A stretch of DNA of 64,000 bases, taken from Bifidobacterium asteroides DSM 20089. GTDB taxonomy: Bacteria > Actinomycetota > Actinomycetes > Actinomycetales > Bifidobacteriaceae. The translations under genes were made by a program, and so were the position numbers. A model generated the notes under the pieces. That model ran no database searches. It was given only the letters and a program-made list of their open reading frames with translations, and was not told the origin of the DNA. This document shows positions 13,343 to 43,336 of this stretch, piece after piece; within the stretch, counting starts at the first letter, position 1; the number at the start of each line of letters is the position of its first letter. Location: NCBI RefSeq assembly GCF_002715865.1, contig NZ_CP017696.1, positions 1,860,001-1,924,000 on the forward strand, written 5' to 3'.

Positions 13343-13578
13343 CGAGAGAGAAGAAAGGGAAATCAGTTGTCGGACGGAGGTCAACCGCCCGTTCGGTTTT
13401 TGAGCCGATGTTTATAGTAAACAACAGCTACCTTATGGTGACGATAGTGTTATCTGAAAATTCTCTGTGAATCCAGCCGGATCAGAAGGCGGGCATAGGG
13501 CCGGTTAGACTGGATTTCGGATGGTTTCCCGCCCGACGAGAGAACCTCGATTAACGAACCTAAAGGAGATACCTCGGC

Positions 13579-20984: not shown

Positions 20985-21002
20985 TGGCAAGGAGATCAAC
21001 CC

Positions 21003-21842: not shown

Positions 21843-23079
21843 GATGTTTTGCTGGTTCTTGCCTGCTTTTACACTGGAGGCATGGCTGACAAGAAGGGCC
21901 CGACCAAGGGTTCGGGCGGCAAGCACCGCAACAAGCTGCGCGGCAGGGGGCCCACCCCCAGGGCCGAGGACCGCGTCTACCACAAGGCCTACAAGGCCCG
22001 GCAGGCGGCCCAGCGCAGGCAGGCGGCCGACCCACGGCTGGCGGCCCGCCGCCGGGCCGACCGGTTCACCTCCGACTCCGACGACCTGGTCATCGGCCGC
22101 AACGCGGTCCTGGAGGCCCTGCGCGCGGGCGTGCCGGCCAGCCAGCTCTACCTGGCCGCCCGGATGGAACACGACGACAGGACCAGGGAGATCGTACGCC
22201 TGGCCGGGCAGGAGGGGCTCAACCTGCTGGAGGCCGACCGCCTGGAGATGAACCGCATCGCCCGGTCCGGCAGCCACCAGGGCGTGGCCCTCAAGGTGCG
22301 GCCCTACCAGTACGCCTCCCTGCAGAGCCTGGCCGACCGGGCCGAGAAGCACGCGGCCGCCCTGGAAGGGGCCGACCAGGCGACCAGGGTCGCCGCCCGC
22401 CCCCTGTTCATCGCCCTGGACGGGGTCACCGACCCGCAGAACCTCGGGGCCGTGATCCGATCCGCTGCGGCCTTCGGCGCCTCGGGGGTGATCCTGCCCG
22501 AACGGCGCAGCGCCTCCGTCACAGCCGCGGCCTGGAAGGTCTCCGCCGGAGCCGCCGCCCACCTGCCCGTGGCCCGCGTGGTCAACCTGACCAAGGCCAT
22601 CCAGGGACTCAAGGAACGCGGCTACTACACGGTCGGCCTGGACGGCGCGGGCAACACCACCGTGGGCGAGACGGGCTTCGAGACCGACCCGCTGGTGGTG
22701 GTCCTGGGCTCCGAAGGCAAGGGGCTGAGCCGCCTGGTCCGCGAGAACTGCGACGCCCTGGCCTCCATCCCCATCTCCAGCTCGGTGGAATCCCTGAACG
22801 CCTCGGTCGCGGCCGGCATCAGCCTCTACGCCATAGCCACGGCACGCCGACGACCCGCCAGCCACACCCAATAACCCCAGACAGGCACCGGCAACCTGAA
22901 GACAGACAAGCCAGGAGGACGCCCAGACCGCACACGGCATCCAGCCCGCAGCAGACCGGATGCCGCACAGACCAACCAGTCAGCTGGACGCCCAGACCGC
23001 ATCATCCTGATCATCCTGATCGGCAGCCGCATCCAGACTGCCAGGAGCATAGACCGACCTCAACGAACCCCGACCACCA
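21843..23079 (+). repeat. direct repeat copy A (rlmB block), left flank of EPS locus
   Basis: This ~1.24-kb block matches 42100-43336 base for base at a constant offset of 20,257 bp, with about eight substitutions seen by eye and no indels. It starts 39 bp before the rlmB start codon and ends in what is, in copy B, the last ~100 bp of the DUF4032 gene. Outside these limits the flanks are unrelated. Because copy B continues into an intact DUF4032 gene, copy A is the derived one. Confidence 0.95.
21882..22874 (+). CDS. rlmB: SpoU-family 23S rRNA 2'-O-methyltransferase, copy A
   Basis: A 330-residue TrmH/SpoU methyltransferase, most like RlmB, which methylates the ribose of G2251 in 23S rRNA. 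The N-terminus is basic and low-complexity (about 60 residues, typical of actinobacterial members), then comes the substrate-binding domain (VIGRNAVLEALRAG) and the knotted SPOUT domain with DGVTDPQNLGAVIRSAAAFGASGV, LGSEGKGLSRL and SVESLNASVAAGISLY. The ATG at 21882 has GGAGG upstream. It differs from copy B at only two residues (SAS versus SAT; REN versus REH). Both copies look functional, which is unusual for this core gene. Confidence 0.93.
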   Translation: MADKKGPTKGSGGKHRNKLRGRGPTPRAEDRVYHKAYKARQAAQRRQAADPRLAARRRADRFTSDSDDLVIGRNAVLEALRAGVPASQLYLAARMEHDDRTREIVRLAGQEGLNLLEADRLEMNRIARSGSHQGVALKVRPYQYASLQSLADRAEKHAAALEGADQATRVAARPLFIALDGVTDPQNLGAVIRSAAAFGASGVILPERRSASVTAAAWKVSAGAAAHLPVARVVNLTKAIQGLKERGYYTVGLDGAGNTTVGETGFETDPLVVVLGSEGKGLSRLVRENCDALASIPISSSVESLNASVAAGISLYAIATARRRPASHTQ

Positions 23080-23119
23080 TTCGCGTCCGATTCACCACAG
23101 CCGACTCGCCCACCAGAGC

Positions 23120-23459
23120 AGCCCACACATGGGCGTTCGCTGGTGTTGGTCAGGGTCGCATTGAGCTCCAGCCGTCCGACGATGTTCTCGGTGCCGAAGG
23201 GGAAGAGCAGCCGGCCGGGGCCCTCAGCAGGAGCCAGGGCATCGGCGGGAAGGGATTTGACGCCCCAGATCTCGATCCTCATCCGGTTACGTCCGGCATG
23301 AACCGCCCTGGTGACGTCCAGGTCGTAGGGCAGCAGCGTCATCAGATAGCCGCCGGTGGATGGCGGCCCCACTTGGATTGCGTTGATCGACGCCCTGCCC
23401 AGGGTGGCCAGGGCGTCCAGGTGCAGGATCACGTCCTCGTTCGGGTCAAGGGCACCCAG
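23120..23459 (-). pseudogene. fragment of a GH2 hydrolase gene
   Basis: Read on the minus strand, this stretch encodes a piece closely similar to the N-terminal domain of the GH2 enzyme at 14361 (LDPNEDVILHLDALATLG, then GYLMTLLPYDLDVTRAVHAGRN, then LELNATLTNTSERPC). About 30 residues are missing between FGTENIVGR and LELNATL. It is open in frame with the DUF4032 tail left by repeat copy A, making a chimeric frame of 196 codons (22980-23570) that has no likely function. Differences from the intact gene show it is a diverged paralogue, not a fresh copy. Confidence 0.85.
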
Positions 23460-23529
23460 GCTATGTTGGCGGCCAATCAGAGCACACACCGACAACTTAC
23501 TGACCTCAAAGCCCTGCCAACGCCGAAAA

Positions 23530-24690
23530 TCGGCATTGTGCGCAGAACTTATAACCAGAACATTTCGCAATTCGAGAATTTCTCGACGAGAATATCCAGG
23601 GTTAGCAATGGGCTACAAATTCTTCCCCGGTTTCTAGGAAGCCAGGGGCATAAGACACCGGCCGAGGCACGCTCCAGCAGCGGACTAATCGGGGTCCCTC
23701 GGACCCATGGATGCCGAAAACGGTAAGGGGGTCATCAATGACTTCCACCCCCAACACTGAGTTCTACGGCATCAATACAGGTGGAACGCCCGAAGAGGAA
23801 GCGCTCTTTTCCTCGCCTATCAAATTCGGGTTCAATATATGCTGGACAGCCCGACAGCGTCATCATGATAAATCCCGTGTTTATCCAGGAAATCGTCAAA
23901 CTCAACGGTGGTGTAAATCCGCCAAGCGGCCGGCTCCGACTGGCGACAACACCGACAAATACTTCATGAACACCATATACAGGACGATTCCCATCGGCCA
24001 GCAGGACGGTGTCTTCTCCGCGGTCGCCAAGCAGACCATGAATGATGTATTGAAAAATCTGAACTCACAGAAATTGTTCGCTCTCGTTAGACTTATACCA
24101 AACATGGCCGAAGGCAGGCATCTCTATGCATATTCCTTCAATGATGGCGAAGCCGAGGACTTCCAAGGAGCCGGTCTTGCCAAGGACACTCCGAACAGTT
24201 AGGAGAATCCCGAAATCGGCATCTATCTGAACCAGAACGATTCGACGAAACTGGATTGGTACTTTCACCGTCAAACCATCATCACAAGAACCTCCTGCAA
24301 TGCGAGCAGCGGTGAGCAATCAGCTCAACCGTGATGAAATGCATACCGGCAACCGGGACCGGGATCAGTACCTCTTTGGCGGATCACCCACCTTGAACTT
24401 CAACTTCAAGCAGGGTAGTCAAGTGGAGCGAATGCTCTTCTATGCGCCGGCAGGTGGCTCCATAAGTAACTTCGCCATCAATGGTAATGCCACCGAAGTG
24501 GCCCCAGCGACCTTAAACGGCAAACAGTTCTATCACAGCCTCGCAACCATCGATATCGGCAAAAATGCGACATATGAATACGATGCGAACCGTCAGAATA
24601 GCGGAGTACTAGACTCCATACATTGCAAGGTTGTGGAAACCATCGGACAAGCGGATCGCGCCAGTCTGCTTTTTGTCTCCATCAGCTAAT
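23530..24690 (+). pseudogene. decayed DUF4012 gene
   Basis: Several frames together match the DUF4012 protein encoded at 39623: QFENFSTRISRVSNGLQILPRFLGSQG, then NDFHPNTEF, MNTIYRTIPIGQQDGVFSAVAKQTMNDV, EGRHLYAYSFNDGEAEDFQGAGLAKD, and ERMLFYAPAGGSISNF. The frame is broken by frameshifts and a stop at about 24200, and the N-terminal half is missing. Identity is moderate, so this is a remnant of a different DUF4012 allele, presumably from an earlier EPS locus in the same place. Confidence 0.88.
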
Positions 24691-24741
24691 TACTGGTTTA
24701 TGCTCATAACGACCCCGAAAATCACCAGAAAAGAGAAAGAC

Positions 24742-25881
24742 ATGACAAAGTCCGCGTTGCAAAGAGAGCCTCGATCATCAGGATTTGAGCTCCTACGAAT
24801 CATAGCTATGCTAATGATTGTCTTGCACCATCACATACTGCATAATCAATTCAATCCGGTTGGTACCGGTTGGTCTCTGAAGCAGTTGGCATACGTTTTC
24901 ATGGTTCCTGGCGGAAAAATCGGGGTCGTTATTTTTTTTGGCATTTCCGCGTGGTTCCTTTGCGAATCAAGGTCACCCACTGTCAAGTCATCTCTTAAAC
25001 GTATCTGGATACTCGAGCGAGAAGTCCTCTTTTACAGTATTGGCCTCATGACTTTTTATTGTATTTACAATCGAGAGAAAATCAGTTTACACGGCGTTAT
25101 TGTCACGCTATTCCCGGTTACTCGTGACACGTGGTGGTATATCACTAGCTACGTCTTGTTCTTATTGTTTTATCCATTCATCAATGAGAGCCTGCACAAG
25201 CTTGGCCGTTCAATGCATGGCAAATTGTGCTTGGTCATTGCAGTAATCTGGCTTGTTGTATATGGTCTTCTTCCAGGTCCCTACTTTGATTTCGAATATA
25301 CTAACTTCCTGGCTTTTATTTATCTCTATATACTGATTGCCTACTATCGATGGTACATGACTGAATTCTCCAGCGCCGTTGGATGGCTTCTCATCGCATT
25401 AGGGACACTCATATTCGGAGCAGCTTCAATAGCTTGCGATTTCCTCTACTACAAGACAGGCGCGTCATTCAACCAATCGCGAATCGGATATCTGGGCGGC
25501 GACTGCAAACTGCCGACAATCATAATCGGATTCGGAGCATTGATTATCGCCTCACATCAGCATTTTGTCAGTGCGGCAATCAACTATATAGCAGGAAGCA
25601 CCCTTGCGGTATATCTCATACATGATTATCCCACGACAAGAACACTGCTGGCATCTGTTTTTAATATTGCCAAGTTCTATGACAGCGGTTGGGCTGTTCT
25701 CTTGTCTGTCGGCATCGCCCTTTTGATATTCCTGGCCTGCATTTGCATTGACATTCCCAGGCGCGCAATTTGGAGGGTCCGACTCGATAAACAACCAGGA
25801 AAGCTCTTTGAAGTGGCTTACACGCAGCTGGAGAAGGTCGGACGGCGCTTAAACCCTGCCTTCACAAGGTTTATCAGGTAA
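24742..25881 (+). CDS. acyltransferase 3 family membrane protein
   Basis: A 379-residue integral membrane acyltransferase (family 3, OafA/WecH-like) with about ten helices. The N-terminal SGFELLRIIAMLMIVLHHHI carries the catalytic His region of the family, and FFGISAWFL follows. Such enzymes add acetyl or other acyl groups to surface sugars. An open frame extends upstream, but it runs into the DUF4012 remnant; ATG 24742 is the likely start, ATG 24700 an alternative. It is the first intact gene of the EPS locus. The GC content is clearly below that of the flanking core genes. Confidence 0.85.
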   Translation: MTKSALQREPRSSGFELLRIIAMLMIVLHHHILHNQFNPVGTGWSLKQLAYVFMVPGGKIGVVIFFGISAWFLCESRSPTVKSSLKRIWILEREVLFYSIGLMTFYCIYNREKISLHGVIVTLFPVTRDTWWYITSYVLFLLFYPFINESLHKLGRSMHGKLCLVIAVIWLVVYGLLPGPYFDFEYTNFLAFIYLYILIAYYRWYMTEFSSAVGWLLIALGTLIFGAASIACDFLYYKTGASFNQSRIGYLGGDCKLPTIIIGFGALIIASHQHFVSAAINYIAGSTLAVYLIHDYPTTRTLLASVFNIAKFYDSGWAVLLSVGIALLIFLACICIDIPRRAIWRVRLDKQPGKLFEVAYTQLEKVGRRLNPAFTRFIR

Positions 25882-25990
25882 CCCGGTCAAAGCCATATGA
25901 TGCGCGTATCCGGCGACACTTCGAAGGTTCGCTGTGAAAGGCGACGCAAGCAATTCTCTCCATCATGACAAAGGTATAGGATTTACTATT

Positions 25991-27172
25991 ATGTACAGAG
26001 TCTGCTTGATCCTTCCCGGATTGCTGCCAGTACCGGCCACCCAGGGAGGGGCCATAGAAACTCTCGTGACCACCCTCATCAAACAGAATGAGGTCTTCAG
26101 AGAACTTGACCTGTACGTCGTCACCAGTTTCGACGATAAGTCAAAACGTCTTGCCGCCTCCTTCCACAACACGCACTTCATCTTCGTGCCGACACCCAGC
26201 CGCACCCTCTCCAAAATGTTCCATCGTGCCGAAGTGTTGGGGAAGCTGACCAATACACTCCCACAGAAGTATCAGATCAGTGATCTATTCCATATGCGCG
26301 CCTTGCGGATGATCAAAGACATAGCTTTCGATGCAGTGGTATTCGAAGGCGGGACCCCCTGGGGATATCCAGCATTTCGATTCCTTTACAAGGACCGCTT
26401 GTACCTGCATGTCCATTTTTGTGCCGACCATATCATCGAAGGTTCACAATACAAGCGCATTATAGCTGTCAGCAATTACGCGGCTCAGGCTTGGAAGCAC
26501 TACTCGACCCGCCCCGACCAGGATGTCCGTGTGGTCCTGAACGGAATTGAGACCAAGACGCTTGACAGTTGCGAAGCACGCGATGCCAGCTCTGCCGTAA
26601 GGGCGAAACTGGGTTTCGCACCAACGGATTTCGTCGTTCTCTACAGCGGACGAATCATACCGGTCAAGGGCCTTCTGGAATTGACCCGTGCAGTTTCCTT
26701 GACCGACGACAGGAGCATCAAACTGCTGATCATCGGCAGTCCCGATTTCGGTCCTTCGTCCGACACTGAATATTCTCATCAGGTTCAGTCGGCAGTCGAA
26801 CACCTGGGGAGGCGCGCAAAGTACCTGGGTTATGTCCCCCACGATAAGGTCGCAGATTATCAGTATGCCGCTGACGTACAGGTGGTTCCATCGCTTTGGG
26901 AAGATGCGGCTCCACTGTCTTGTGTTGAAGCGATGGCGGCGGGCTTGCCGCTCATCGTCACGAAATCCGGAGGCATGCAGGAATATACGCAACCTGAATG
27001 TGCAATCACGGTGGAGAAAAACGGCGACTTGCCAAAGTCCCTTGCACACGCCATCGCTAACCTTAAGCGACACCCTGAAATGCTAGTTTCTATGAGTAAG
27101 GCAGGCCGGCTCTTATCTAGAAGATATACACCTGAGAACTTTTATCGCAACTTCGTCAAAGCCGTGAAATGA
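25991..27172 (+). CDS. family 4 glycosyltransferase
   Basis: A 393-residue GT-B retaining glycosyltransferase. The donor-binding half has VLYSGRIIPVKGLLELTRAV, then VPSLWEDAAPLSCVEAMAAGLPLIVTKSGGMQEY, the GT4 E-X7-E region; the N-terminal half starts CLILPGLLPVPATQGGAIETLV. The start at ATG 25991 removes a short upstream extension that opens at GTG 25934. It probably adds one sugar to the lipid-linked EPS repeat unit on the inner face of the membrane. The sugar cannot be predicted. Confidence 0.88.
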   Translation: MYRVCLILPGLLPVPATQGGAIETLVTTLIKQNEVFRELDLYVVTSFDDKSKRLAASFHNTHFIFVPTPSRTLSKMFHRAEVLGKLTNTLPQKYQISDLFHMRALRMIKDIAFDAVVFEGGTPWGYPAFRFLYKDRLYLHVHFCADHIIEGSQYKRIIAVSNYAAQAWKHYSTRPDQDVRVVLNGIETKTLDSCEARDASSAVRAKLGFAPTDFVVLYSGRIIPVKGLLELTRAVSLTDDRSIKLLIIGSPDFGPSSDTEYSHQVQSAVEHLGRRAKYLGYVPHDKVADYQYAADVQVVPSLWEDAAPLSCVEAMAAGLPLIVTKSGGMQEYTQPECAITVEKNGDLPKSLAHAIANLKRHPEMLVSMSKAGRLLSRRYTPENFYRNFVKAVK

Positions 27173-27214
27173 CGAATTTCGCTCCTCTCGTCCTGATTAT
27201 GATTGCGGCCTCCA

Positions 27215-28747
27215 ATGAAGGATAAACAGCTTTTAATTAATCTGATCTCCAGTCTCATCAACTTCGCCATTAACATCGGGATTGGATTTATACTCACCAG
27301 TTATATAGTTTCTCATGTAGGAGCTGAAGCCTATGGTTTTATAGGTCTCGCCAACAATATGATCAACTATGCTTCTTTCTTGACCATAGCTCTGAATTCC
27401 GTTGCGGGACGGTTCATTACCGTCGCCTACCACCAGGGGCATAGGAAGGAAGCCGACAAATACTTTTCCTCAACATTAGCGGCCAACTTCATACTCTCAG
27501 CAATATTAAGTGCAGTTGCAATACCTCTCATATGGAAGCTGGAAGTGCTGGTGAACATTTCCCCTGCACTGGTGAAAGACGTCAAGCTGCTATTCGGATT
27601 CATATTCTTGAATTTCATAATAACAACGATGACAACTGTATTGAACGTAGCTACATTTGTGAAGAATCAACTTTATCTTTCAAGTTTAGCCAATATTGCT
27701 TATTCCCTCATGAGAGTCATCACCTTGTTCCTGTTGTACTCACTGCTTCCGGCCAGGGTCTTCTATGTCGGAGTGGCTACCTGTCTAGGCACAGTGGCGC
27801 TATCTTGGCTGAATTATCGATACACCAAACTACTCACCCCTGAATTACGATTCCGAACCAAGGAAGTATCTGTCGAAGCGACCAGACATATGCTCAGCTC
27901 CGGGATATGGAACAGCATCATCAAGCTGCAGCAGATACTATCGGACGGCCTTAGCTTACTCATCGCAAACTTGATGGTCAGCGCCAATTCAATGGGACTA
28001 CTGTCTATCGCCCAAGTTATCCCAAATGCTCTTTCAGGCATCATCAATACGGTATCCAGCTTGTTCTACCCGGAACAGACCCGGTTCTTCGCCCAAAAGA
28101 ACAAGGATGCGATGATATCACAGATAAGGGCGGGTATGAGAGTCAGTGGGCTCTTCACCAACATAATCGTCGTGGTACTGGTCACAAGCGGTTACAGGCT
28201 GATCCAGTTATGGCAACCCAATCAAGACGATAAAACCATATACATACTTATGGTGCTGACCCTGAGTGGCTTTTTTCTTTCTGGTGTCGCCACAACGCTG
28301 CAGAACATACCCCTCATCACCAATCATTTACGCGCTTATTCCCTTTACTGGCTGCTATGCGGTGTTGTTTCCTCCCTGGGCTCGATCGCATTGGCCGCTT
28401 GGACCTCTTTAGGCGTCTACGCAATCGCCGCTGTCCCGCAGGCAACCGGGTTCTTGATGAACCTCCTGTTTGTCCCTATATATGCGTCGAAACAGCTTGG
28501 GATAAAATGGACCGCCTTCTATCCCGTATATCTGCAGTACATCGTCGCCAGCATCATAGCGTGCTGCTGTTGTTCGGGCCTTCAGATCATATTGGGAAAA
28601 CACGAGATGGGGTGGGCCTCGTATCTTGCCGCCTGCTTCCTTTATGCGTTCATTACCGCAGGCATTGACCTTTTCGTCCTTCTGGGGAAACAGGAACGTT
28701 CAAGGATGGCGGATATCATCAAACACTACACGGCAAAACTGCTGTAG
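27215..28747 (+). CDS. Wzx-like polysaccharide flippase
   Basis: A 510-residue membrane protein with about 12-14 helices and the pattern of the polysaccharide transport (PST/MOP) superfamily: NLISSLINFAINIGIGFILTSYIVSHVGAEAYGFIGLANNMINYASFLTIALNSVAGRF. It would flip the undecaprenyl-linked repeat unit across the membrane. The frame could begin at TTG 27203; ATG 27215 is the simplest start, though neither has a strong ribosome site. It lies 42 bp after the GT4 gene. Confidence 0.88.
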   Translation: MKDKQLLINLISSLINFAINIGIGFILTSYIVSHVGAEAYGFIGLANNMINYASFLTIALNSVAGRFITVAYHQGHRKEADKYFSSTLAANFILSAILSAVAIPLIWKLEVLVNISPALVKDVKLLFGFIFLNFIITTMTTVLNVATFVKNQLYLSSLANIAYSLMRVITLFLLYSLLPARVFYVGVATCLGTVALSWLNYRYTKLLTPELRFRTKEVSVEATRHMLSSGIWNSIIKLQQILSDGLSLLIANLMVSANSMGLLSIAQVIPNALSGIINTVSSLFYPEQTRFFAQKNKDAMISQIRAGMRVSGLFTNIIVVVLVTSGYRLIQLWQPNQDDKTIYILMVLTLSGFFLSGVATTLQNIPLITNHLRAYSLYWLLCGVVSSLGSIALAAWTSLGVYAIAAVPQATGFLMNLLFVPIYASKQLGIKWTAFYPVYLQYIVASIIACCCCSGLQIILGKHEMGWASYLAACFLYAFITAGIDLFVLLGKQERSRMADIIKHYTAKLL

Positions 28748-28783
28748 ATCCATACTACGGGCAACAAGCATGAAGGAAGAGGC

Positions 28784-29689
28784 ATGAAAGACGGAATCAC
28801 TCTGGTAACCGCTTTCTTTCCGATAGGCAGGGGTCAATGGGGCCAAAGTGCACGCACCAATGACCAATACATGTATTACTTCTCCCGATGGGCAAAGCTC
28901 CAAAATGACTTGATTGTATTCACCACTCCGATGTTGGCTGAGCGCATCTGCTCTCTTCGCCAAACCCTTTCCCCATCCAGCACAAGAGTGATAGCAATCG
29001 AAGATCCGCGAGAGTTCGACCCCGACATGTTGGATTTGATGGAACAAACAGGGAAGGCCTATTTGCCTTATGCTTTCTACCCGGAGAAGGCCGAATTCAA
29101 TAATGCTTTATACGACTACATCATGTACTGCAAGTTCTCCTGCCTTGAACGAGCCGCCACTTTGGCGAGTACAGAGCGGCTCGCATGGATTGATTTCGGA
29201 TTCGACCATGGCGGCACATTCTACCAGGACGAATCATTCTTCGAGTCCACATGGTCATACTCAGGTTTTAAGAAGCCGGTTTCTCTCTTCAGCCTCAGGG
29301 AGCTTGATGACAGACCGATTTTCCAACTACTGCAGACCTCCGACACCTATATTCAGGGAGATTGTTTTGCCTGCAAAACCTCCTTCGCTTCTCAGTTGAA
29401 GCAGGATGCGACCCAGCAATATCTGCATATTCTGAACTGCGGCTACATAGATGACGACCAAGTCGTATTGCTCATGTGCCTGCGCAATGATCCTGAGCAT
29501 TATGAAGCCTTGCCAAGTGACTGGTTCTCACAATTATTGGATTATAACGATGCGCAACAACCCAGGAAGGGGACTCTATACACCGACATTCCAGCACCAG
29601 GGTTTGCCGACAGGATGAGATGGAGGAAATCCTGTATCAGATATCTGTCTCAGGAATTCAAAAGGCTATCACGCCAAGTACCGCAATAA
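28784..29689 (+). CDS. HtrL/YibB-like glycosyltransferase-type protein
   Basis: A 301-residue protein resembling the HtrL_YibB/WlaTC family found in polysaccharide loci, with the opening ITLVTAFFPIGRG, the mid segment LAWIDFGFDHGG (a D-F-D-like motif), and a late FACKTSF/GYIDDDQVVLLMC region. These proteins are presumed glycosyltransferases. There is no membrane segment. It is convergent with the GT2 gene that follows, with only 4 bp between the stops. Family assignment is by pattern memory and the exact activity is unknown. Confidence 0.65.
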   Translation: MKDGITLVTAFFPIGRGQWGQSARTNDQYMYYFSRWAKLQNDLIVFTTPMLAERICSLRQTLSPSSTRVIAIEDPREFDPDMLDLMEQTGKAYLPYAFYPEKAEFNNALYDYIMYCKFSCLERAATLASTERLAWIDFGFDHGGTFYQDESFFESTWSYSGFKKPVSLFSLRELDDRPIFQLLQTSDTYIQGDCFACKTSFASQLKQDATQQYLHILNCGYIDDDQVVLLMCLRNDPEHYEALPSDWFSQLLDYNDAQQPRKGTLYTDIPAPGFADRMRWRKSCIRYLSQEFKRLSRQVPQ

Positions 29690-29693
29690 TCAA

Positions 29694-30764
29694 TCATCTT
29701 CCGTCACAGGGTTTACAGTAGCGAAGAGCGGCAACCATCCTTGCATATCTGCGAGGGGAGAAAACAAGGCAGAAAGCCCTTTTCAGCTTCTGCCTCCACC
29801 CCATGCCGCAGGTGCCGATCCTCGCCATCACCGCTTTCGCTTGGTTTGAAACCATCCGAATAACCTCGGCCTGGGGCTGCTCAAGATCTTTGTTTTCTTT
29901 CTCCAGCAAGCAGATGGCAATGAATTGACTTATCAACGAGTCAAAGGTGCCGGCAATCGCTGCATCAATGTGTTCAGAATGATAGAAATCAAGACGTTCA
30001 GATAGCGCCACGGCAGCATCTGCAGTGCTTCGAAGAGTCATCTGCTTCATGATGCTGCCCGCTCTTTGGACATAGTGATAGAGAATATCATTAGATACAG
30101 CGACTTTTTTACATTCAGAAGCTATCGCATGAAACACAAACTCATCTTCATGGAGCCTTCCTTCCGGGTAGGCGATGCCGTCCCACTTTTCCCTCCTATA
30201 CAGTTTGTTCCAGGCAACGATGTCGCCCCAGTGATCTGGCCTCGCTGCGTCAATCATCAATTGGGTTCCTGTGACGACCCCGCTGCGGGGGAAAATCGGC
30301 CCCTCCGACAGCGCGTGACCTTCATCGTCTTCCTCCAAGAAAGCGCACATCGACATATCGGCTTCACCATGCGCAAGGGCACGATAAAGACACTCTATAA
30401 ACGTCGGTTCAACATAGTCATCACTATCAACAAATGCTACATAATCGGTCTCGCAAGAAGCCAGTCCACGGTTACGTGCAGCCGATAACCCCTTATTCAC
30501 CTGATGAATTACCTGTATACGGGTGTCTGTGTCACCCCACTGATCGCATAATTCGCCGGAACCGTCAGTTGAACCATCATCTACCAGAATGATGCTCAAC
30601 TCCCTGTATGTTTGCGTTACAAGACTCTGTACACAACGGTCTAGGTAACTGCTTACCTGGTATACGGGTACGACAATCGTAATCACCGGCCGTCCTACCA
30701 TATGAAAAGCGCCAGACTCGCCAGCTCGTTCAATTCTCAACCGTGCCGCCTCTTGCCTCATCAT
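29694..30764 (-). CDS. family 2 glycosyltransferase
   Basis: A GT-A inverting glycosyltransferase with the GT2 start ITIVVPVYQVSSYLDRCVQSL, the SIILVDDGSTDGSGELCDQ nucleotide-binding segment and the FVDSDDYVEP metal-binding DxD. The open frame reaches back to 30830; ATG 30764 has a GGAG at a usable distance and gives 356 residues, while ATG 30701 gives a minimal 335-residue form. The frame overlaps or abuts the upstream GT2 gene, so the two are cotranscribed against the direction of the rest of the locus. Confidence 0.85.
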   Translation of the reverse strand: MMRQEAARLRIERAGESGAFHMVGRPVITIVVPVYQVSSYLDRCVQSLVTQTYRELSIILVDDGSTDGSGELCDQWGDTDTRIQVIHQVNKGLSAARNRGLASCETDYVAFVDSDDYVEPTFIECLYRALAHGEADMSMCAFLEEDDEGHALSEGPIFPRSGVVTGTQLMIDAARPDHWGDIVAWNKLYRREKWDGIAYPEGRLHEDEFVFHAIASECKKVAVSNDILYHYVQRAGSIMKQMTLRSTADAAVALSERLDFYHSEHIDAAIAGTFDSLISQFIAICLLEKENKDLEQPQAEVIRMVSNQAKAVMARIGTCGMGWRQKLKRAFCLVFSPRRYARMVAALRYCKPCDGR

Positions 30765-30814
30765 TGTGCACACGCTCCGATATCCGTGCTCCCGTCGCCA
30801 GCCACATGCATAGC

Positions 30815-31795: not shown

Positions 31796-32053
31796 AGTTC
31801 TTCTTGCCTCACAAATCCATGGGACGTCAGCAATGCGCGATGGTCAGTATATATCCCTACCGTTGAAAGCAGCGACCCAGCTGCACAGCGTCATGAGATA
31901 TGCCGCAGCCAGAATCCACCCGGTAAACCGAATTTTTGCTGTGATTGCAGAGACCTTCATTCTGAACCGAATCCCGTGGCATAGTATCTGGAAGTATATA
32001 ATTCTATCCTTAGACCATGAGTGCGCTCGCCGCCGGTAAAGGAAAGAGGATTC

Positions 32054-32884: not shown

Positions 32885-32902
32885 GAAATCCGGGGATAAA
32901 TC

Positions 32903-34051: not shown

Positions 34052-34288
34052 GAGCCCAAACAACAGAACACCGGAGTGGCTGGGACAACAGCCAAGAACC
34101 GTCTCCGAACAGTCTCGATTCACCGGTTGCCGGTGTGACGTATCACTAAAATCAGCGATCTTCTGGTCAGCTTCCAGCAATTCCCTATTGGGCGCATTAT
34201 CCCTCACTCGTGGTCATGCAGTACCCAGATGCCTTGGGCCATCTACTGAGTAAGATGGCACCAGATAGTCAATCAGGAGGGAGGAGGA

Positions 34289-35338: not shown

Positions 35339-35352
35339 TCGTCCTAAAAGAC

Positions 35353-36654
35353 ATGAAACCGATCTTCCCACACAGGAATACTACATTGTTCCAACGAGTC
35401 CGAGGCAAGGGCGAAAGCCAAAAAGGCGTTTCTTCCGTGACGGCTGTCTCAGCAGGCACCCTTGCAAGCGTCCTTGTGATTGTTTCCGCAATGATATTTG
35501 CCTATACGAAAATATGGGCACATCGAATCGGGTTTCAATCCTCTCATGATCCTTCATTAAATATGCTTGTAGAAATCTCTTTGGGGATTGTCGCTCTCTG
35601 CTCGCTTCTGAAATTCGCCATTTCATTCCATGACATCATGGATATCGGTGTCGTCAACATAGCAATTTATGTCATGCTGCTTTGCGTGGCTTTCCTTTTC
35701 TATAAAACAAAGAGTATCGGGACAGATTTTATTTTGGCAGGATTAATAGGATTTGTCTTGCACAAGGAAAAGCCCCGTCTGATTATCGAATCAACCTTCT
35801 ATAGCTGCCTTGTACTATTTTCTTTCCAGCTGCTTGGATATGCCCTCGGTTTATTCCACGATAACGGTGTATGGACAAGTGCGGCACAGCCCTCTGCTCC
35901 CAGGCTTGCCTTCGGCTTCGGCTATCCTACTTACGTCTTTGCCTACTTCTTGCCCATTCTGATGGGAATTTACTATCTTGATAAAATCAAATTCCGAAAA
36001 ATCACTGCTGCTTACTGCTTGGCCCTTCTTGTTATTGTCTTTTTGAAAACAGCCAGCAAGGCCCTTCTCATCCTGACCGCCTTGATGCTCTTCAACCCGA
36101 TAGTGAAAGTCGGGCTGGAGAAAAGCAGGCTGGTCCGCCAACTCATGGTCCTGGCATACCCTCTCTTTGCCCTGCTGAGCATCTGTTCTGCCATATTCAT
36201 GAGCAGAATACCGCCGCCAATAAGAGATTTGTTTTCCGGACGTTTCTGGTACTGGAATCAGTACTGGAAGGGCGGAGTGCAGATTTGGGGACCAACGCCA
36301 TCCAACAATGACTTATTCTTCGTCCAACGATATCCCCTCGACAACGCCATATTGCATGCTCTCTTTATCGGCGGCATCATCGTCACCATCACAATAGGCG
36401 TGATGTACACAAAACTGATATACTCAGCCATCAAGGCATCGGATTATAAGCTTGCTGTACTTGTCCTCAACACCCTGGAGTTCGGCTTTACCGAAGCACT
36501 ATTTTCCTTGGGCATCACCGTCATCATGCCCCTTCTTTACAGTGTGTTCTTGCAGAGAACGCCCGCATCACATCAGAACGGATCTACCGACATTGCTTTA
36601 ACGCCAAGACATAGCACCTCTATATATAAGAGCGTCGGGAAGCCCAAGACATAG
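35353..36654 (+). CDS. Wzy-like EPS polymerase candidate
   Basis: A 433-residue membrane protein with about 10-12 helices and a long central loop (SRIPPPIRDLFSGRFWYWNQYWKGGVQIWGPTP), the layout expected for Wzy/O-antigen ligase-type polymerases. No catalytic motif is diagnostic in this family, so the call rests on topology and on the fact that the locus has a flippase and a priming transferase but no other polymerase candidate. Base composition is the AT-rich style of the locus. Confidence 0.7.
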   Translation: MKPIFPHRNTTLFQRVRGKGESQKGVSSVTAVSAGTLASVLVIVSAMIFAYTKIWAHRIGFQSSHDPSLNMLVEISLGIVALCSLLKFAISFHDIMDIGVVNIAIYVMLLCVAFLFYKTKSIGTDFILAGLIGFVLHKEKPRLIIESTFYSCLVLFSFQLLGYALGLFHDNGVWTSAAQPSAPRLAFGFGYPTYVFAYFLPILMGIYYLDKIKFRKITAAYCLALLVIVFLKTASKALLILTALMLFNPIVKVGLEKSRLVRQLMVLAYPLFALLSICSAIFMSRIPPPIRDLFSGRFWYWNQYWKGGVQIWGPTPSNNDLFFVQRYPLDNAILHALFIGGIIVTITIGVMYTKLIYSAIKASDYKLAVLVLNTLEFGFTEALFSLGITVIMPLLYSVFLQRTPASHQNGSTDIALTPRHSTSIYKSVGKPKT

Positions 36655-36806
36655 TACCTGTCGGCCACTGACATCGAGCCGCTGGAAACCCTCACTTTCA
36701 CATGCAAAGCAGGGGTAGGGATGTTATACCAATGTCCGCTGAATCAGTAGTGACGGCATTGGGGCGCTAATCGTCGTTTCGCTTCTAGGACAGCCGAGGA
36801 GGCTAC
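36655..36806. other. intergenic stretch before the sugar transferase remnant
   Basis: About 150 bp behind the polymerase gene with no gene or clear terminator. It leads directly into the decayed transferase at 36807. Confidence 0.5.
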
Positions 36807-37440
36807 ATGGTTGAAAGGGGCGAGCCGAAGACGGAAGGTGCGACTTCTCAGGCACGCCGCGTTTCCTATCCCTCTTCGTCCATCCCTGTGGTCAAAAAGC
36901 CTCAGTGGAAGCACCAGCGCGCTGAGACCGGTGCACCATCCATCCTTGACGGAGCGAACGCTGCTCCTCCAAAGAGGCAACACTCCAACAACAGGACCAG
37001 CAAACCCCTGACCTTCAACAATTCTCCGTTCGATGATGGCATAGGACCCCATCCCTAACTACGGTAGCTGAACCGAACACCCACATGGCAGTACCTGTAC
37101 ATCGCTCTGCTCCTCAGCGTTGACGTCGCTGTCATGGTTTGCTCCCTGCTCATCTGTGGGTCTTACCATCGACACGTCATGTCGGAGGGATACGGCCCTA
37201 AGCACCCTCATCTTCAACGCAGCCCTGATGATGGTCATTTTCACCTCCTGCGTGGTCTGCATGCTGGATCTCCGACTGCCTCGGACATCAGTCATAGCCG
37301 CTACGTGCTCGCCTGCGTCTTCGAGGCGGGCGCCCGCTGGCTTATGAGACTGCTGCTGCATGCCTTGTTGAACGTCTGAGCGCACAGATCCTCATCGTCG
37401 CGGATGTCATCAGCAGAGAAGCCGACCTCGGGAGAACTAC
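36807..37440 (+). pseudogene. remnant of a second polyprenyl-phosphate sugar transferase
   Basis: The stretch first encodes a Pro/Ser-rich N-terminus, then after a stop reads TWQYLYIALLLSVDVAVM, SLLICGSYHRHVMSEGYG, NAALMMVIFTSCVVCMLDLRLPRTS and, in another frame, ERLSAQILIVADVISREADL. Each piece matches the intact sugar transferase at 37732 in the same order, but several membrane helices are lost, frames shift, and the catalytic C-terminal domain is absent. It is thus a collapsed paralogue, lying directly beside its intact counterpart. Confidence 0.88.
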
Positions 37441-37731
37441 GAAGTTCCTGTCCATTAATTCGACAGGGGCGCTTGTAAAATGGAACGAAATACTAACAGC
37501 CTATATGCGGATGCTCCAATATAATCGTGAATGCAACCTTTCTAAGATTAAAGAAAAGGCTATGATGCAAGACTGAACGCCGCTTGAATGACGGATTTCT
37601 ACTGCAGCTTAGTGAACTAAGATAGTTATTTTCCAACTTGTGGTTAATTAAACACAAGTTGCTGTAAACTAATGACGTACATATATCAGCAACTGGTATA
37701 TCATTTGTCTATGTTTGGGAAGGTGTAGCGA
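37441..37731 (+). promoter_or_regulatory. leader of the sugar transferase gene with alternative hairpins
   Basis: This AT-rich 291-bp gap contains CAACTTGTG (37634-37642) paired perfectly with CACAAGTTG (37653-37661), and GTTGCTG (37658-37664) paired perfectly with CAGCAAC (37687-37693). The two pairings share GTTG and exclude each other, as in attenuator leaders, but no T-run terminator follows. The region ends with GGAAGGTG, the ribosome site of the TTG start at 37732. Confidence 0.45.
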
Positions 37732-39444
37732 TTGAAATGCGTTGCTCAAGATCCCGGCAATGATGCAGTCCAAGCGGGATCCGACAGTAGTGTAGCTTAT
37801 AGCTATGGTCGTAGTCCCATATCCAATCCCGAAGTAGCTCCCGATTCTTTGCCATTAGAAACGGCACCTACACAGGCACTTCGTTTCATCAACCAGCGGT
37901 TCGACTCAACAGACAATACCAATTCCATTATCCAGCAACTTCGCCTAACCCCGCATTGGCGATATTGGTTCGTGGCTTCCCTCATTGCGGTAGACGTAGC
38001 TGTCATGTCAGTTTCACTTATGGTCAGTTTTCTAGTTAAGCCACTATCTTTGAAGACCATAGAAAACTATATACCTGCCTTCTACTTTGGACTAATCCAA
38101 TGCCTGATATGGTTATTCAGCCTGTTGATTTGCGGAACCTACCACCGACATGTCATGTCAGAAGGTTACGGCCTTTACACCAAAATTTTTAACGCCGCTC
38201 TATTGGACATGGTAATAACCAGTTGCCTGGTATATATGCTCCATATGAATCTGCCAAGAACTACTGCGATTATCGTGCCCGTCATAGCGGGTGTTTTAGA
38301 GGTACTCGCCCGCTGGATGGCGCGCCGCGCTTTACATCAATACCGTCAGCAGGGCAAGTGCAAATATGACGCAATAATAGTGGGTTCTCAAGCTGGAATA
38401 GATAATATGCTCAACACCCTTGAAACCAGCGATGCTAGCGGATATACACCTATAGCGGTATGCCCGATCGCTCTTGATCCGAATTCGCCACACGGTGACG
38501 TTATAGCTACTCCATACCACCAGCCAGACTTAGATACCAACTCTCAAGTAAAAACGATTCCTAATAAGGGCATGCAAGATTGTACACATGTGCATGTTGT
38601 CGCTTTCAACTCTCACTTTCCACGTACAGCAGAACGACTAGGTGCACAAATAGTCATTGTTACGGACGTCATTACCCGCGATAATCAAATCATGCATGCC
38701 CTATCCTTAGCCGTGGAATCATTAGGCATAGAATTGGGGGTATCCATATCGGTCGCGGATTTGAGTAGTCACCGCATTGATCTGGACTATTCAGGCATGC
38801 AACCCATCCTCATTGCCAGTCTTCCTCAATATTCATCACTCACACGCTTCGTTAAACGGACCATGGACATCATAGGGTCCTTCCTCGCTCTCATCGTTTT
38901 CACGCCCTTTATAATCCTCCCCGCTGCCATTGCCATCAAGCTTGAGGATCATGGGCCGGCATTCTACAAACAAATACGCATTGGTCGCAACGGTAAGCCA
39001 TTCCATTGTTATAAACTGCGTTCCATGTTTGTTAACGCAGACAGGTTTGATGCCCAGCTTGCTGAGGTAGCCGGAAAAAAATATGGTGCTCTTTTCAAAG
39101 TCGAGAATGATCCAAGGATAACCAAAGTAGGACACTTCATACGGAAGTACTCTATTGATGAATTCCCCCAGTTCTTCAACGTCCTGAAAGGTGATATGTC
39201 ATTGGTCGGTCCTCGACCTCAGCGAGAATATGAAGTGGCCGAATACGGGACACTTTACTCCACTCGACTTTTAGTACGTCCAGGGATCACCGGACCTTGG
39301 CAGGTTTCCGGTCGTTCCGACCTTTCTCAAGAAGAAGCCGAACGTCTCGATGTTTCTTACATACAGCAATGGAGCGTTACGGGTGATTTGGCAATTCTTG
39401 CTAAGACAATTATGGCCGTATTTCGTCACACCGGTTCTTACTAA
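37732..39444 (+). CDS. polyprenyl-phosphate sugar phosphotransferase (EPS priming enzyme)
   Basis: A 570-residue bacterial sugar transferase (WbaP/CpsE type) that loads the first sugar phosphate onto undecaprenyl phosphate. It has a variable N-terminus, four membrane helices (about 80-200), a nucleotide-fold domain, a fifth helix, and the catalytic C-terminal domain with VKRTMDIIGS, KLEDHGPAFYKQIRIGRNGKPFHCYKLRSM, DPRITKVGHFIRKYSIDEFPQFFNVLKGDMSLVGPRP and RPGITGPWQVSGRS. Start is TTG 37732 with GGAAGG at the right spacing. It is immediately downstream of a collapsed paralogue and upstream of the DUF4012 gene. The sugar (galactose or glucose most often) is not defined. Confidence 0.92.
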   Translation: MKCVAQDPGNDAVQAGSDSSVAYSYGRSPISNPEVAPDSLPLETAPTQALRFINQRFDSTDNTNSIIQQLRLTPHWRYWFVASLIAVDVAVMSVSLMVSFLVKPLSLKTIENYIPAFYFGLIQCLIWLFSLLICGTYHRHVMSEGYGLYTKIFNAALLDMVITSCLVYMLHMNLPRTTAIIVPVIAGVLEVLARWMARRALHQYRQQGKCKYDAIIVGSQAGIDNMLNTLETSDASGYTPIAVCPIALDPNSPHGDVIATPYHQPDLDTNSQVKTIPNKGMQDCTHVHVVAFNSHFPRTAERLGAQIVIVTDVITRDNQIMHALSLAVESLGIELGVSISVADLSSHRIDLDYSGMQPILIASLPQYSSLTRFVKRTMDIIGSFLALIVFTPFIILPAAIAIKLEDHGPAFYKQIRIGRNGKPFHCYKLRSMFVNADRFDAQLAEVAGKKYGALFKVENDPRITKVGHFIRKYSIDEFPQFFNVLKGDMSLVGPRPQREYEVAEYGTLYSTRLLVRPGITGPWQVSGRSDLSQEEAERLDVSYIQQWSVTGDLAILAKTIMAVFRHTGSY

Positions 39445-39622
39445 TCAGTCCAAATTACGTATAAGCCTCAATACCGGATTCTGCACGCACTCTTAGAAGA
39501 GTGTGGATAAAAGCACAAATCACAAAAACTACATACCTACAAACCAAATCAAATTCTATGAACTATATGATGTTAGAAGCCTGAAGAGAAACAGCAAACA
39601 GTGGCAACTAGCAGGAGTGCAC

Positions 39623-41494
39623 ATGCCTACAACAGACGTCTCGGGAAACCATTCCAGGACAAATAACAAACCACCCGAGCATATGTGCAACGAATTGAAT
39701 ACTCGTAAACACAAATCTCACCGCTTGCGCAATACGTTACTCATCACTTTCATAGTGTTCGCGGCGTTTCTACTACTAGCAGCAGGCTTCGGCTTCAAAT
39801 TTTATCGTGACGCCATGCAGATCAAAAACCACGAAGAAGTCGCCCTTTCCTATATTTCCGGATTGAGTGCCGACAATATAACCCAGGATCCAGATACAGC
39901 TATTAGAGTCATACCTAAAGTACAAGCCGAAACTTCGGCTGCCAATCGTCTAGCTCACAGCAGAGTTTGGGACACAGCCTCTGTGATCCCTGGAATCGGC
40001 GATGATGTAAAGAATCTTCAGGGTATGGTCGAGATTGTAAATAGCACCTCACATGATTCACTCCCTGTTTTATCAGATACCATTCGTCAACTCGTAAATA
40101 CTGCATATTACCAGGGAAATGGACAAATCAATCTGAGACCACTTACGGCAGCAGGGGCTGGATTCGCACAGGCTGATAAAAGCATACAAATGCAATCTGA
40201 AAAGCTCAAATCACTTCCTTATCCACGAATCAGACAAGTACAGAACGTATACACCGAGGCAGAAAAGCAGTTCTCCTACTTGGCCGACACTACAAGCAAC
40301 CTCAACCGGGCTGTTCACGTTCTCCCGCAGTTACTTGGAATTCAAGGCCCACGCTCCTACATTATCGTAGCTCAAACACCTTCAGAATCTCGTTCAGGTG
40401 GAGGCCTTATAGGCTCTTTGGGCTCAATGCACGCTGATAATGGGATGGTTAAAGTTAACGACTTTCACCCCAATACAGAGTTTATCCGCCTAGGAGTCAT
40501 AAATACTGACGACCCAGATGGGATTTTTTCAGCGCCTCTGCATTTTGGCTTCGATATTCGGGATTTAACAGCGTATCCTGACTTTTCACAAACTGCAAAG
40601 GCTGTTAATACTTGCTGGCAACGCTCTTCCTATGCCGGACAGATTGATGGCGTCATCATGATTGACCCAGTATTCATACAAGAAGTAATCAAAATCAGCG
40701 GCAACATCAGGACTTCCAACGGTCACATTCTCACCGGAGAAAATACTGCACAATTCTTTATGAATGACATATATAAAACAATTCCCGTGTATGAGCAGGA
40801 TGCAGTATTTGCCGGTGTTGCGAAACAAGCCATGAACGGTGTCTTCGCGAAGATGAGTACGAAAAAAATCATGGCACTGTCAAAGCTATTTAAGCCAATG
40901 GCAGAGCAACGACATCTATACATGTATACGTTCCATGCGGATGAGGCCGCGTACTTCCAAGGCTCAGGATTAGCCAAGGAGGCCCCTGATAACGAAGAGA
41001 AACCGGAAATTGGAATCTACCTTAATCAGAACAATCCTTCCAAGCTGGACTGGTACCTTCACCGCAAAACCGACATCACACACACCTCAACTGCAACGGA
41101 CGGAAGCAGAACTTATCATGTCAAATTCTCGATGACCAATGTCCTCACCCAGAGTGAAATGAGCGGTTTGACCAGTTACGTACTGGGCCAATCGAGCAAC
41201 TTTACCTCAAGGGGCACTGCTTTGGAGAAAATGCTCTTCTACCCACCCGCAGGAGGATCCATCTCAAACATCCGGTATAGGGGTGGGGGCTGGCAGCCTA
41301 AACGTGCCGTATTCAATGGTAAACACCTTTATACCAGTCTGGCCTCCATACCTCCAGGCCAAACTGTCGTTTATGAGTACGATGTCACCACCTCACCAAA
41401 AGCCAAGACGGACCTGAACGTGGATCAGACTCCGATGGGTTGGGCCGACCCAGGTGTCACTTTCAATGACCTTACCGGCAACAATAAGCAGTAA
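39623..41494 (+). CDS. DUF4012 membrane-anchored EPS-locus protein
   Basis: A 623-residue DUF4012 protein. After a basic cytoplasmic segment (HKSHRLRNT) a single helix at about 35-57 anchors it, and the rest faces outside. The family core is visible: YIIVAQTPSESRSGGGLIGSLGSM, DDPDGIFSAPLHFGFDIRDLTAYPDF, GQIDGVIMIDPVFIQEVI. A reading from GTG 39503 adds 40 residues, but ATG 39623 has AGGAG five bases upstream. Function is unknown; members are common in actinobacterial polysaccharide loci. Both it and the transferase exist here as an intact copy and a decayed one. Confidence 0.85.
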   Translation: MPTTDVSGNHSRTNNKPPEHMCNELNTRKHKSHRLRNTLLITFIVFAAFLLLAAGFGFKFYRDAMQIKNHEEVALSYISGLSADNITQDPDTAIRVIPKVQAETSAANRLAHSRVWDTASVIPGIGDDVKNLQGMVEIVNSTSHDSLPVLSDTIRQLVNTAYYQGNGQINLRPLTAAGAGFAQADKSIQMQSEKLKSLPYPRIRQVQNVYTEAEKQFSYLADTTSNLNRAVHVLPQLLGIQGPRSYIIVAQTPSESRSGGGLIGSLGSMHADNGMVKVNDFHPNTEFIRLGVINTDDPDGIFSAPLHFGFDIRDLTAYPDFSQTAKAVNTCWQRSSYAGQIDGVIMIDPVFIQEVIKISGNIRTSNGHILTGENTAQFFMNDIYKTIPVYEQDAVFAGVAKQAMNGVFAKMSTKKIMALSKLFKPMAEQRHLYMYTFHADEAAYFQGSGLAKEAPDNEEKPEIGIYLNQNNPSKLDWYLHRKTDITHTSTATDGSRTYHVKFSMTNVLTQSEMSGLTSYVLGQSSNFTSRGTALEKMLFYPPAGGSISNIRYRGGGWQPKRAVFNGKHLYTSLASIPPGQTVVYEYDVTTSPKAKTDLNVDQTPMGWADPGVTFNDLTGNNKQ

Positions 41495-42099
41495 GAACAT
41501 GGTATAATTCCACAGTTCCACAGGCCTGCAGAGCAGGAGGATTTTGAACCATCGGATTCATCTGTTTGACTTCAAATTCACTTAAAGGCATATACATGCG
41601 GTGACCATGCACTCGTTTTTCAACGAACACAAATAACCGATCGGCCCGGCCTGGGATTTCACATCTGGATAACCCGCATTGTCCACAACTTTCTGTACGA
41701 ATCGGGGCTTTGATTGATCATCTGCCGGGCACGGCAAACATCAACCAATCGCAACCCTGATTCCTCGCCGCCTTCTGAATCACACACCGTGGATCTCTTC
41801 GGGGGGAGGAGGTTTAGAGTAGTTATTTTGTTTTTCCAAAGACTCATCGCCTAGGTGGCATAACCATATCAAGTTAGTGTTCGGCCACAATCCACATTTC
41901 AAAGGTGCGTGTATCAACCAAACCAGTCGCAAAAATACCGTTTGTGTAGGAATAGGAACCCAGCATAGCTCTTCGCCATATGTGATGACCAAGGAACTAC
42001 AAAACAGAAGCTGCCATGCATTACTCAGCACATGGATGCTGCACCCACCTCGAAATCTCTGATTGTCAGACGCAACGTCAATCAGCATAAATGAGAAAG
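41495..42099. other. gene-free junction between EPS locus and repeat copy B
   Basis: About 600 bp in which I see no gene with family resemblance, no tRNA, and no transposase remnant I can name. Short open frames on both strands lack ribosome sites. Base composition is intermediate between the EPS genes and the GC-rich repeat that starts at 42100. Confidence 0.5.
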
Positions 42100-43336
42100 G
42101 ATGTTTTGCTGGTTCTTGCCTGCTTTTACACTGGAGGCATGGCTGACAAGAAGGGCCCGACCAAGGGTTCGGGCGGCAAGCACCGCAACAAGCTGCGCGG
42201 CAGGGGGCCCACCCCCAGGGCCGAGGACCGCGTCTACCACAAGGCCTACAAGGCCCGGCAGGCGGCCCAGCGCAGGCAGGCGGCCGACCCACGGCTGGCG
42301 GCCCGCCGCCGGGCCGACCGGTTCACCTCCGACTCCGACGACCTGGTCATCGGCCGCAACGCGGTCCTGGAGGCCCTGCGCGCGGGCGTGCCGGCCAGCC
42401 AGCTCTACCTGGCCGCCCGGATGGAACACGACGACAGGACCAGGGAGATCGTACGCCTGGCCGGGCAGGAGGGGCTCAACCTGCTGGAGGCCGACCGCCT
42501 GGAGATGAACCGCATCGCCCGGTCCGGCAGCCACCAGGGCGTGGCCCTCAAGGTGCGGCCCTACCAGTACGCCTCCCTGCAGAGCCTGGCCGACCGGGCC
42601 GAGAAGCACGCGGCCGCCCTGGAAGGGGCCGACCAGGCGACCAGGGTCGCCGCCCGCCCCCTGTTCATCGCCCTGGACGGGGTCACCGACCCGCAGAACC
42701 TCGGGGCCGTGATCCGATCCGCTGCGGCCTTCGGCGCCTCGGGGGTGATCCTGCCCGAACGGCGCAGCGCCACGGTCACAGCCGCGGCCTGGAAGGTCTC
42801 CGCCGGAGCCGCCGCCCACCTGCCCGTGGCCCGCGTGGTCAACCTGACCAAGGCCATCCAGGGACTCAAGGAACGCGGCTACTACACGGTCGGCCTGGAC
42901 GGCGCGGGCAACACCACCGTGGGCGAGACGGGCTTCGAGACCGACCCGCTGGTGGTGGTCCTGGGCTCCGAAGGCAAGGGGCTGAGCCGCCTGGTCCGCG
43001 AGCACTGCGACGCCCTGGCCTCCATCCCCATCTCCAGCTCGGTGGAATCCCTGAACGCCTCGGTCGCGGCCGGCATCAGCCTCTACGCCATAGCCACGGC
43101 ACGCCGACGACCCGCCAGCCACACCCAATAACCCCAGACAGGCACCGGCAACCTGAAGACAGACAAGCCAGGCGGACGCCCAGACCGCATACGGCATCCA
43201 GCCTGCAGCAGACCGGATGCCGCACAGACCAACCAGTCAGCTGGAAGCCCAGACCGCATCATCCTGATCATCCTGATCGGCAGCCGCATCCAGACTGCCA
43301 GGAGCATAGACCGACCTCAACGAACCCCGGCCACCA
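42100..43336 (+). repeat. direct repeat copy B (rlmB block), right flank of EPS locus
   Basis: Partner of 21843-23079, in the same orientation. It begins 39 bp before the rlmB ATG and runs past the convergent stop of the DUF4032 gene at 43237 into its last ~100 bp, after which the sequences part. As the DUF4032 gene is whole here, this is probably the ancestral copy. Confidence 0.95.
42139..43131 (+). CDS. rlmB: SpoU-family 23S rRNA 2'-O-methyltransferase, copy B
   Basis: Second, nearly identical copy of the 330-residue RlmB-like methyltransferase, with the same basic N-terminus, substrate-binding domain and SPOUT knot motifs (NLGAVIRSAAAFGASG, LGSEGKGLSRLV, SVESLNASVAAG). Only two residues differ from copy A. 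It is convergent with the DUF4032 gene, 105 bp away. This copy sits in what appears to be the original chromosomal setting. Confidence 0.93.
   Translation: MADKKGPTKGSGGKHRNKLRGRGPTPRAEDRVYHKAYKARQAAQRRQAADPRLAARRRADRFTSDSDDLVIGRNAVLEALRAGVPASQLYLAARMEHDDRTREIVRLAGQEGLNLLEADRLEMNRIARSGSHQGVALKVRPYQYASLQSLADRAEKHAAALEGADQATRVAARPLFIALDGVTDPQNLGAVIRSAAAFGASGVILPERRSATVTAAAWKVSAGAAAHLPVARVVNLTKAIQGLKERGYYTVGLDGAGNTTVGETGFETDPLVVVLGSEGKGLSRLVREHCDALASIPISSSVESLNASVAAGISLYAIATARRRPASHTQ

Follow-up and report, generated by a model that had tools for sequence, protein, structure and literature searches.

Direct rlmB repeats around an exopolysaccharide locus of Bifidobacterium asteroides DSM 20089: a probable tandem merodiploid at a variable site of the chromosome

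How does a housekeeping gene come to stand on both sides of an exopolysaccharide (EPS) locus in a single genome, and what could such an arrangement allow? The question is raised by a 64,000-bp stretch of the Bifidobacterium asteroides DSM 20089 chromosome (NZ_CP017696.1, positions 1,860,001 to 1,924,000 of the forward strand), called here the window, in which two direct repeats, each with a complete rlmB gene, enclose the genes for a surface polysaccharide. A preliminary description made from the sequence alone had seen in it a “cassette flanked by a housekeeping gene” that permits reversible loss of the polysaccharide. We consider it probable that this variable slot has become a tandem merodiploid: homology at rlmB would have let an EPS allele enter next to the allele already present. 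Most likely, it is the scar of a one-off recombination insertion next to an older island, and its self-deletion is possible.

Self-BLAST of the window returned one direct pair, 1,237 bp long and 99.35% identical, with 8 mismatches, 0 gaps and an offset of 20,257 bp, which confirms the preliminary description. Copy 1 (21843..23079, + strand) consists of a 39-bp leader, rlmB1 (ATG at 21882, end at 22874), a spacer and a truncated DUF4032 3′ end of ~100 bp, while copy 2 (42100..43336, + strand) comprises the leader, rlmB2 (ATG at 42139, end at 43131), the spacer and the 3′ end of an intact DUF4032 gene (43237..44913, − strand; Pfam PF13224). The DUF4032 portion refines the first reading of the repeat: the intact gene is reached from copy 2 only, and copy 1 stops within its ~100-bp 3′ end. 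The left edge of the repeat is abrupt, with identity outside of 20–27% at all distances up to 60 bp; beyond the right edge it falls from 60% (first 10 bp) through 40% (15 bp) to 25–29% (25 bp and more). The idea that the repeat is a gene-conversion tract within a longer duplication was rejected because alignments past the edges do not exceed those of shuffled sequences, apart from some ten bases on the right side. The two rlmB frames are intact, differ by 2 amino acids and match the SpoU methylase Pfam families; rlmB2 also passes the RlmB equivalog TIGR00186 (221 bits against a cut-off of 160, NCBIfam scan of copy 2). RlmB is the 2′-O-methyltransferase of 23S rRNA G2251. The whole genome, a single contig of 2,190,368 bp, has exactly these two copies of rlmB.

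The insert between the copies is 19,020 bp long and has a GC content of 48.9%; outside the repeats the values are 59.7% on the left and 62.6% on the right. It does enclose the EPS genes, as first described: Pfam and NCBIfam identify, over 24631..39444, an acyltransferase, a GT4 glycosyltransferase, a protein with 10 transmembrane (TM) segments, an HtrL/YibB-like protein, two GT2 glycosyltransferases (− strand), DUF4422, a second GT4, Caps_synth, a 9-TM protein and a priming glycosyltransferase (37732–39444, above the NCBIfam EPS cut-off), followed by an intact DUF4012 protein (39503..41494, + strand; PF13196). The TM counts come from hydropathy; the 10-TM protein, which is weakly MatE-like, may be the flippase and the 9-TM protein the polymerase. 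The reported lack of a transposase holds for the insert open reading frames (ORFs) that were scanned, where Pfam found neither integrase nor transposase families, some small overlapping ORFs being unscanned. A tRNA-type integration site at the repeats was considered and rejected, the sole tRNA of the window lying at 50089, and so was a dTDP-rhamnose EPS cluster at another place in the chromosome, since PF00908 gave no match.

To what place in the chromosome does this unit belong? One genome per species was used in the genus and family comparisons, and the named relatives are the best 80 of 378 matching loci, the nearest being strains of B. asteroides and of its sister species, B. polysaccharolyticum and B. 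apousia among them. All ten close named relatives (L003–L012) have CMD-cupin, rlmB and DUF4032 in succession, with CMD 74–346 bp before rlmB, and the order rlmB-DUF4032-MalK-STK is kept in the same ten. The 143 bp to the left of copy 1, i.e., the CMD end and a spacer, match nine close genomes at 73–87% over 138–143 bp and three further ones over just 63–69 bp. Because this left stretch matches the close genomes and an intact DUF4032 lies to the right of copy 2, both outer flanks of the structure are native.

The left edge of the region is marked by a conserved ORF of 212 amino acids (13450..14088, − strand; hereafter the 13450 ORF), which is present in 27 of 27 genus genomes and has no Pfam match; it is fast-evolving. 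It lies 0.29–28 kb from rlmB in those 25 genus genomes that have both on one contig (they are on separate contigs in G017 and G026), which marks the interval as a variable slot. In the window this slot is filled by a resident island (14361..21767, + strand, Pfam assignments) made up of a GH2 enzyme (14361–18467), an MFS transporter (18349–19905) and a LacI regulator ORF (19467–20984), then the CMD-cupin gene (21003–21767). The order GH2-MFS-LacI-CMD recurs in L003, L007, L008 and G001, and a GH2 island lies within the slot in G000, G001, G003, G009 and G011, a sixth GH2 match (G021) being outside it.

EPS-type genes occupy the same slot in five of the 26 other genus genomes. Three outgroups, G002, G021 and G012, share the order 13450 ORF-DUF4012-EPS genes-priming glycosyltransferase-CMD-rlmB-DUF4032; in G026 the priming glycosyltransferase precedes CMD-rlmB, and in G017 DUF4012 is next to the 13450 ORF. 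These EPS-bearing outgroups have a single rlmB, with CMD 70–96 bp upstream of it in G002, G021 and G026 and ~2.1 kb upstream in G012. The priming glycosyltransferase (E ≤ 1e-30) and the DUF4012 region are absent in 12 of the 12 genomes closest by rlmB (92–94%).

Two observations concern individual genomes. In G024 (G024:C1:248367-254271) a relative of the priming glycosyltransferase lies just past the 13450 ORF on the side away from rlmB; EPS genes are thus also found at the other edge of the slot. In G017 the rlmB contig (L185, G017:C60:1-4441) begins 22 bp upstream of the start codon, near the edge of the repeat described here, and the DUF4012 next to the 13450 ORF is on another contig (L179, G017:C39); a collapsed repeat or a strain mixture is possible in that assembly.

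The history of the insert is best read at its margins. Homology to DUF4032 continues to ~23090 and GH2 homology starts at 23127, so a presumed illegitimate junction between the two fragments lies at 23080..23127. The GH2 fragment (23127..23471, − strand) is broken, inverted relative to the resident GH2 and internally deleted; it has 61% amino-acid identity to residues 68–218 of the resident GH2, and its DNA is 87–89% identical to the GH2 of three relatives and 85% to that of the window itself. Next comes a broken relative of DUF4012 (23711..24587, + strand; ~40% amino-acid identity), which lacks its N-terminal part and lies in separate frames: 23750–24298 corresponds to residues 323–530 and 24300–24587 to residues 540–628, with a weak 30% piece from 23472. 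The left margin thus reads as a patchwork of three broken gene fragments, DUF4032, GH2 and DUF4012, each derived from a gene of the rlmB slot or its border, and in G002, G021 and G012, too, DUF4012 is found at this end of the EPS genes. One would expect such a series from the end-to-end joining of DUF4032 to an EPS allele whose left edge was worn. The right margin (41495..42099) includes 53 bp (41564–41615) that are 81% identical to the short spacer between the 13450 ORF and rlmB in G014, which hints at an origin of the EPS allele in a lineage lacking the CMD gene.

What do the two copies themselves record? Their substitutions fall at repeat positions 673, 675, 904, 1074, 1091, 1105, 1147 and 1231, and the initial 672 bp are free of differences (P = 0.014 for a run that long if eight differences are placed randomly), which is a hint of gene conversion. 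In comparison with 13 relatives, copy 1 has private states at 675 (silent), 1074, 1105 and 1231, and copy 2 at 673 (Ser to Thr) and 904 (Asn to His), so that both amino-acid changes are in copy 2; positions 1091 and 1147 are variable among the relatives. Both copies have changed since their separation; private mutations in both imply that the double state has lasted some time or that the copies come from different strains. A single serine codon (22515–22517 / 42772–42774) has mutated in two ways, silently in copy 1 and from Ser to Thr in copy 2. The 39-bp leader differs from ten relatives at 9–13 sites, compared with a mean of 3.1 (maximum 7) among the relatives themselves, the divergent L012 being left out. 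The ratio of focal to relative distances for rlmB, 1.28–1.30, is the highest of 10 genes, the others giving 0.88–1.16 (7–10 relatives per gene). The odd leader and the raised ratio fit an import of rlmB together with the EPS allele, followed by homogenisation.

The double rlmB is rare. The preliminary description had named, as a finding that would refute it, relatives that all carry two fixed copies with the same EPS genes; 26 of the 26 other genus genomes have one, and the double form is therefore found in 1 of 27. In a search of 189 family genomes, 181 matched at E ≤ 1e-60 (eight did not), and two of these have two rlmB genes, namely this genome and G086. The G086 pair is inverted and lies in a 9.7-kb palindrome with arms 99.66% identical and ~200 bp apart (L184, G086:C10:22000-41900), which is probably an assembly artefact and possibly a real inverted duplication. 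Among the named loci, 79 of 80 have one rlmB and one has two; we take the latter to be the same palindrome. A general rlmB-flanked cassette in the family was rejected on these counts, which also lend no support to the cassette as a general or reversible system: among the genomes compared, the paired rlmB genes are a peculiarity of this one, and they give little sign of a switch that evolved and spread.

We suggest the following scenario. The ancestral order would have been 13450 ORF-[variable island]-CMD-rlmB-DUF4032, and in the recipient the slot would have been occupied by the GH2-MFS-LacI island. Incoming DNA of an EPS allele, carrying the GH2 fragment, the DUF4012 fragment, the EPS genes, DUF4012, rlmB and the DUF4032 end, would have been added at rlmB by one of two routes: a circle entered through a single crossover (Campbell-type), or a linear molecule recombined at its rlmB end and was joined illegitimately at its other end (near 23080–23127). 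The outcome would be the series resident island-rlmB1-DUF4032 fragment-EPS-rlmB2-DUF4032, where the left limit of the repeat represents the end of homology between the alleles and its right limit the illegitimate join. This reading is based on the native flanks, the single rlmB elsewhere, the presence of EPS genes in the same slot of outgroups, the fragments at the edge and the low GC content of the insert. As in an integrant, the insert is flanked by direct repeats equal to the single native locus of relatives, and the outer flanks are native and contiguous in these relatives. A transposon or integrative element would carry a transposase or integrase, which was found neither in the unit nor at its ends among the ORFs scanned (small ORFs partly unscanned), and the arrangement does not recur in related genomes as would be expected of an excisable or phase-variable cassette. 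The insertion event and its donor are what we infer from this pattern.

Several points weigh against this interpretation. EPS-type homologues lie within the 10 kb or less available upstream of rlmB in just 2 of the 80 named loci, so that EPS genes in this slot are not the family rule and are rare outside the genus. The plasmid and phage collections gave no donor with megablast (no distant-mode search was run), on which ground a plasmid or phage location of the EPS genes was rejected; the best match to the Caps_synth protein in the 189 family genomes is 43% identical. The 99.35% identity of the repeats needs a same-species donor or later gene conversion, and the insert order, with intact DUF4012 at the right end and no CMD, is absent from the outgroup loci examined. 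The elevated rlmB ratio is modest and, since relative L011 reaches 1.32, supporting rather than decisive. The circle and the linear end-join routes are indistinguishable.

The insertion has to be weighed against vertical retention, under which the EPS genes stayed beside rlmB, the close relatives lost them, and the rlmB segment was later copied leftward by unequal recombination. The outgroups with EPS genes upstream of rlmB agree with this, as does the fact that both copies bear this lineage’s own rlmB sequence. However, a loss would be needed in 12 of the 12 closest genomes, GH2-MFS-LacI already takes up the slot between the 13450 ORF and CMD, just as it does in L003, L007 and L008, CMD adjoins copy 1 and not the EPS side, and the left edge of the insert carries DUF4032 and GH2 fragments; we therefore regard retention as rather unlikely. 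Parsimony and the structure of the joint separate insertion from retention with a later rlmB duplication, but do not amount to proof. That the assembler merged an EPS-allele and a GH2-allele haplotype is extremely unlikely: a 1.24-kb repeat can mislead short-read assembly, but this genome is a single contig with 99.99% completeness and 0.12% contamination, the copies differ at eight sites, and the DUF4032-GH2-DUF4012 fragment join is continuous sequence.

Could the repeats have been kept because they let a population lose or regain the EPS locus? Long near-identical direct repeats, an intact rlmB frame in both copies, a deletion product with the gene order of relatives and the difference-free run as a hint of inter-copy recombination would all suit such an evolved excisable cassette. 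Yet it would be the sole case among the 27 genus genomes, the one other two-copy genome among the 181 matching family genomes having its pair in a palindrome, the EPS-bearing outgroups are likewise one-copy, and the private mutations of both copies indicate no recent turnover of the 3′ half, which makes this explanation improbable. Relatives with one rlmB and no EPS genes, which had been proposed as support for a cassette, do exist; since EPS-bearing outgroups also have one rlmB, the one-copy relatives are most simply ancestral and provide no evidence of excision. Quite improbable, too, is that the rlmB-EPS unit acts as a recombinase-free transferable cassette, whose 20.3-kb circle with one rlmB can re-enter the single rlmB of any strain of the group by homology. 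If this were true, a core housekeeping gene would serve as a portable attachment site, and surface polysaccharides could replace one another or accumulate next to the slot’s resident island.

The capacity for deletion is a separate matter, for it follows from the geometry of the repeats under the insertion scenario as well. Homologous recombination between the copies would delete the 20.3-kb EPS unit and leave one intact rlmB, or would amplify the unit. This part of the preliminary description stands as a possibility: the geometry would allow a RecA-type event. When the deletion is made in silico, its product (CMD-rlmB-DUF4032) forms a single alignment block of 3,654 bp, 89.4–90.8% identical, with each of the four relatives tested (of 12 close ones), and is thus a viable gene order. 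A RecA-type deletion would recreate the gene order of the relatives, so the excision route is mechanically sound; that the EPS unit is lost at the present day is a possibility which we infer from this geometry.

On this reading, the locus illustrates how a chromosome can gain a surface-polysaccharide island with no evident mobile-element enzyme involved, the resident island of the hotspot being kept and not replaced. A clean deletion to an EPS-negative form is predicted for what is a probable bee gut symbiont.

A Campbell-type single-crossover integrant has its insert between two direct copies of the target gene, and its loss restores one copy. Unlike such integrants, the unit described here is a chromosomal-type EPS allele with no plasmid backbone or integrase in the ORFs scanned. 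In the literature we found no description of rlmB repeats around a Bifidobacterium EPS locus among the matches listed (titles and abstract openings; most subscription journals not covered), and matches to “rlmB” and “Bifidobacterium” as whole words were on other subjects only. EPS loci of B. longum and B. breve are the subject of two listed papers, PMC5412050 and PMC6045613.

In honeybee bifidobacteria, the passages cited here describe a hypervariable eps region with strain-specific, lower-GC EPS sets at one chromosomal position (PMC4449606), which resembles our locus in all these respects. That region, however, has dTDP-rhamnose and ABC-2 transporter genes, and its main text does not contain “rRNA methyl”; it is a candidate for the same slot. 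The transformation merodiploids of Streptococcus pneumoniae (Johnston et al., PMC3784515) arise, according to the parts of that paper used here, when incoming partly homologous DNA leads to the keeping of both alleles bordered by repeats; the duplications are ~100–900 kb long and form by interchromatid unequal crossing-over at repeats, in the first case incomplete IS861 copies. Our locus shares with them the presence of both alleles and the repeat-bordered partial diploidy, and differs in its 20-kb unit, its housekeeping-gene repeat and the different islands on the two sides. The cap-b locus of Haemophilus influenzae is, in the section cited, a duplication flanked by IS1016, with capsule loss by deletion at a quoted frequency of 0.1–0.3% (PMC6535587). 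At cap-b, insertion sequences form the repeats and the locus itself occurs twice, whereas here the repeat is rlmB and the EPS locus is present in one copy; both are polysaccharide loci with direct repeats, and cap-b is a precedent for repeat-driven duplication and loss.

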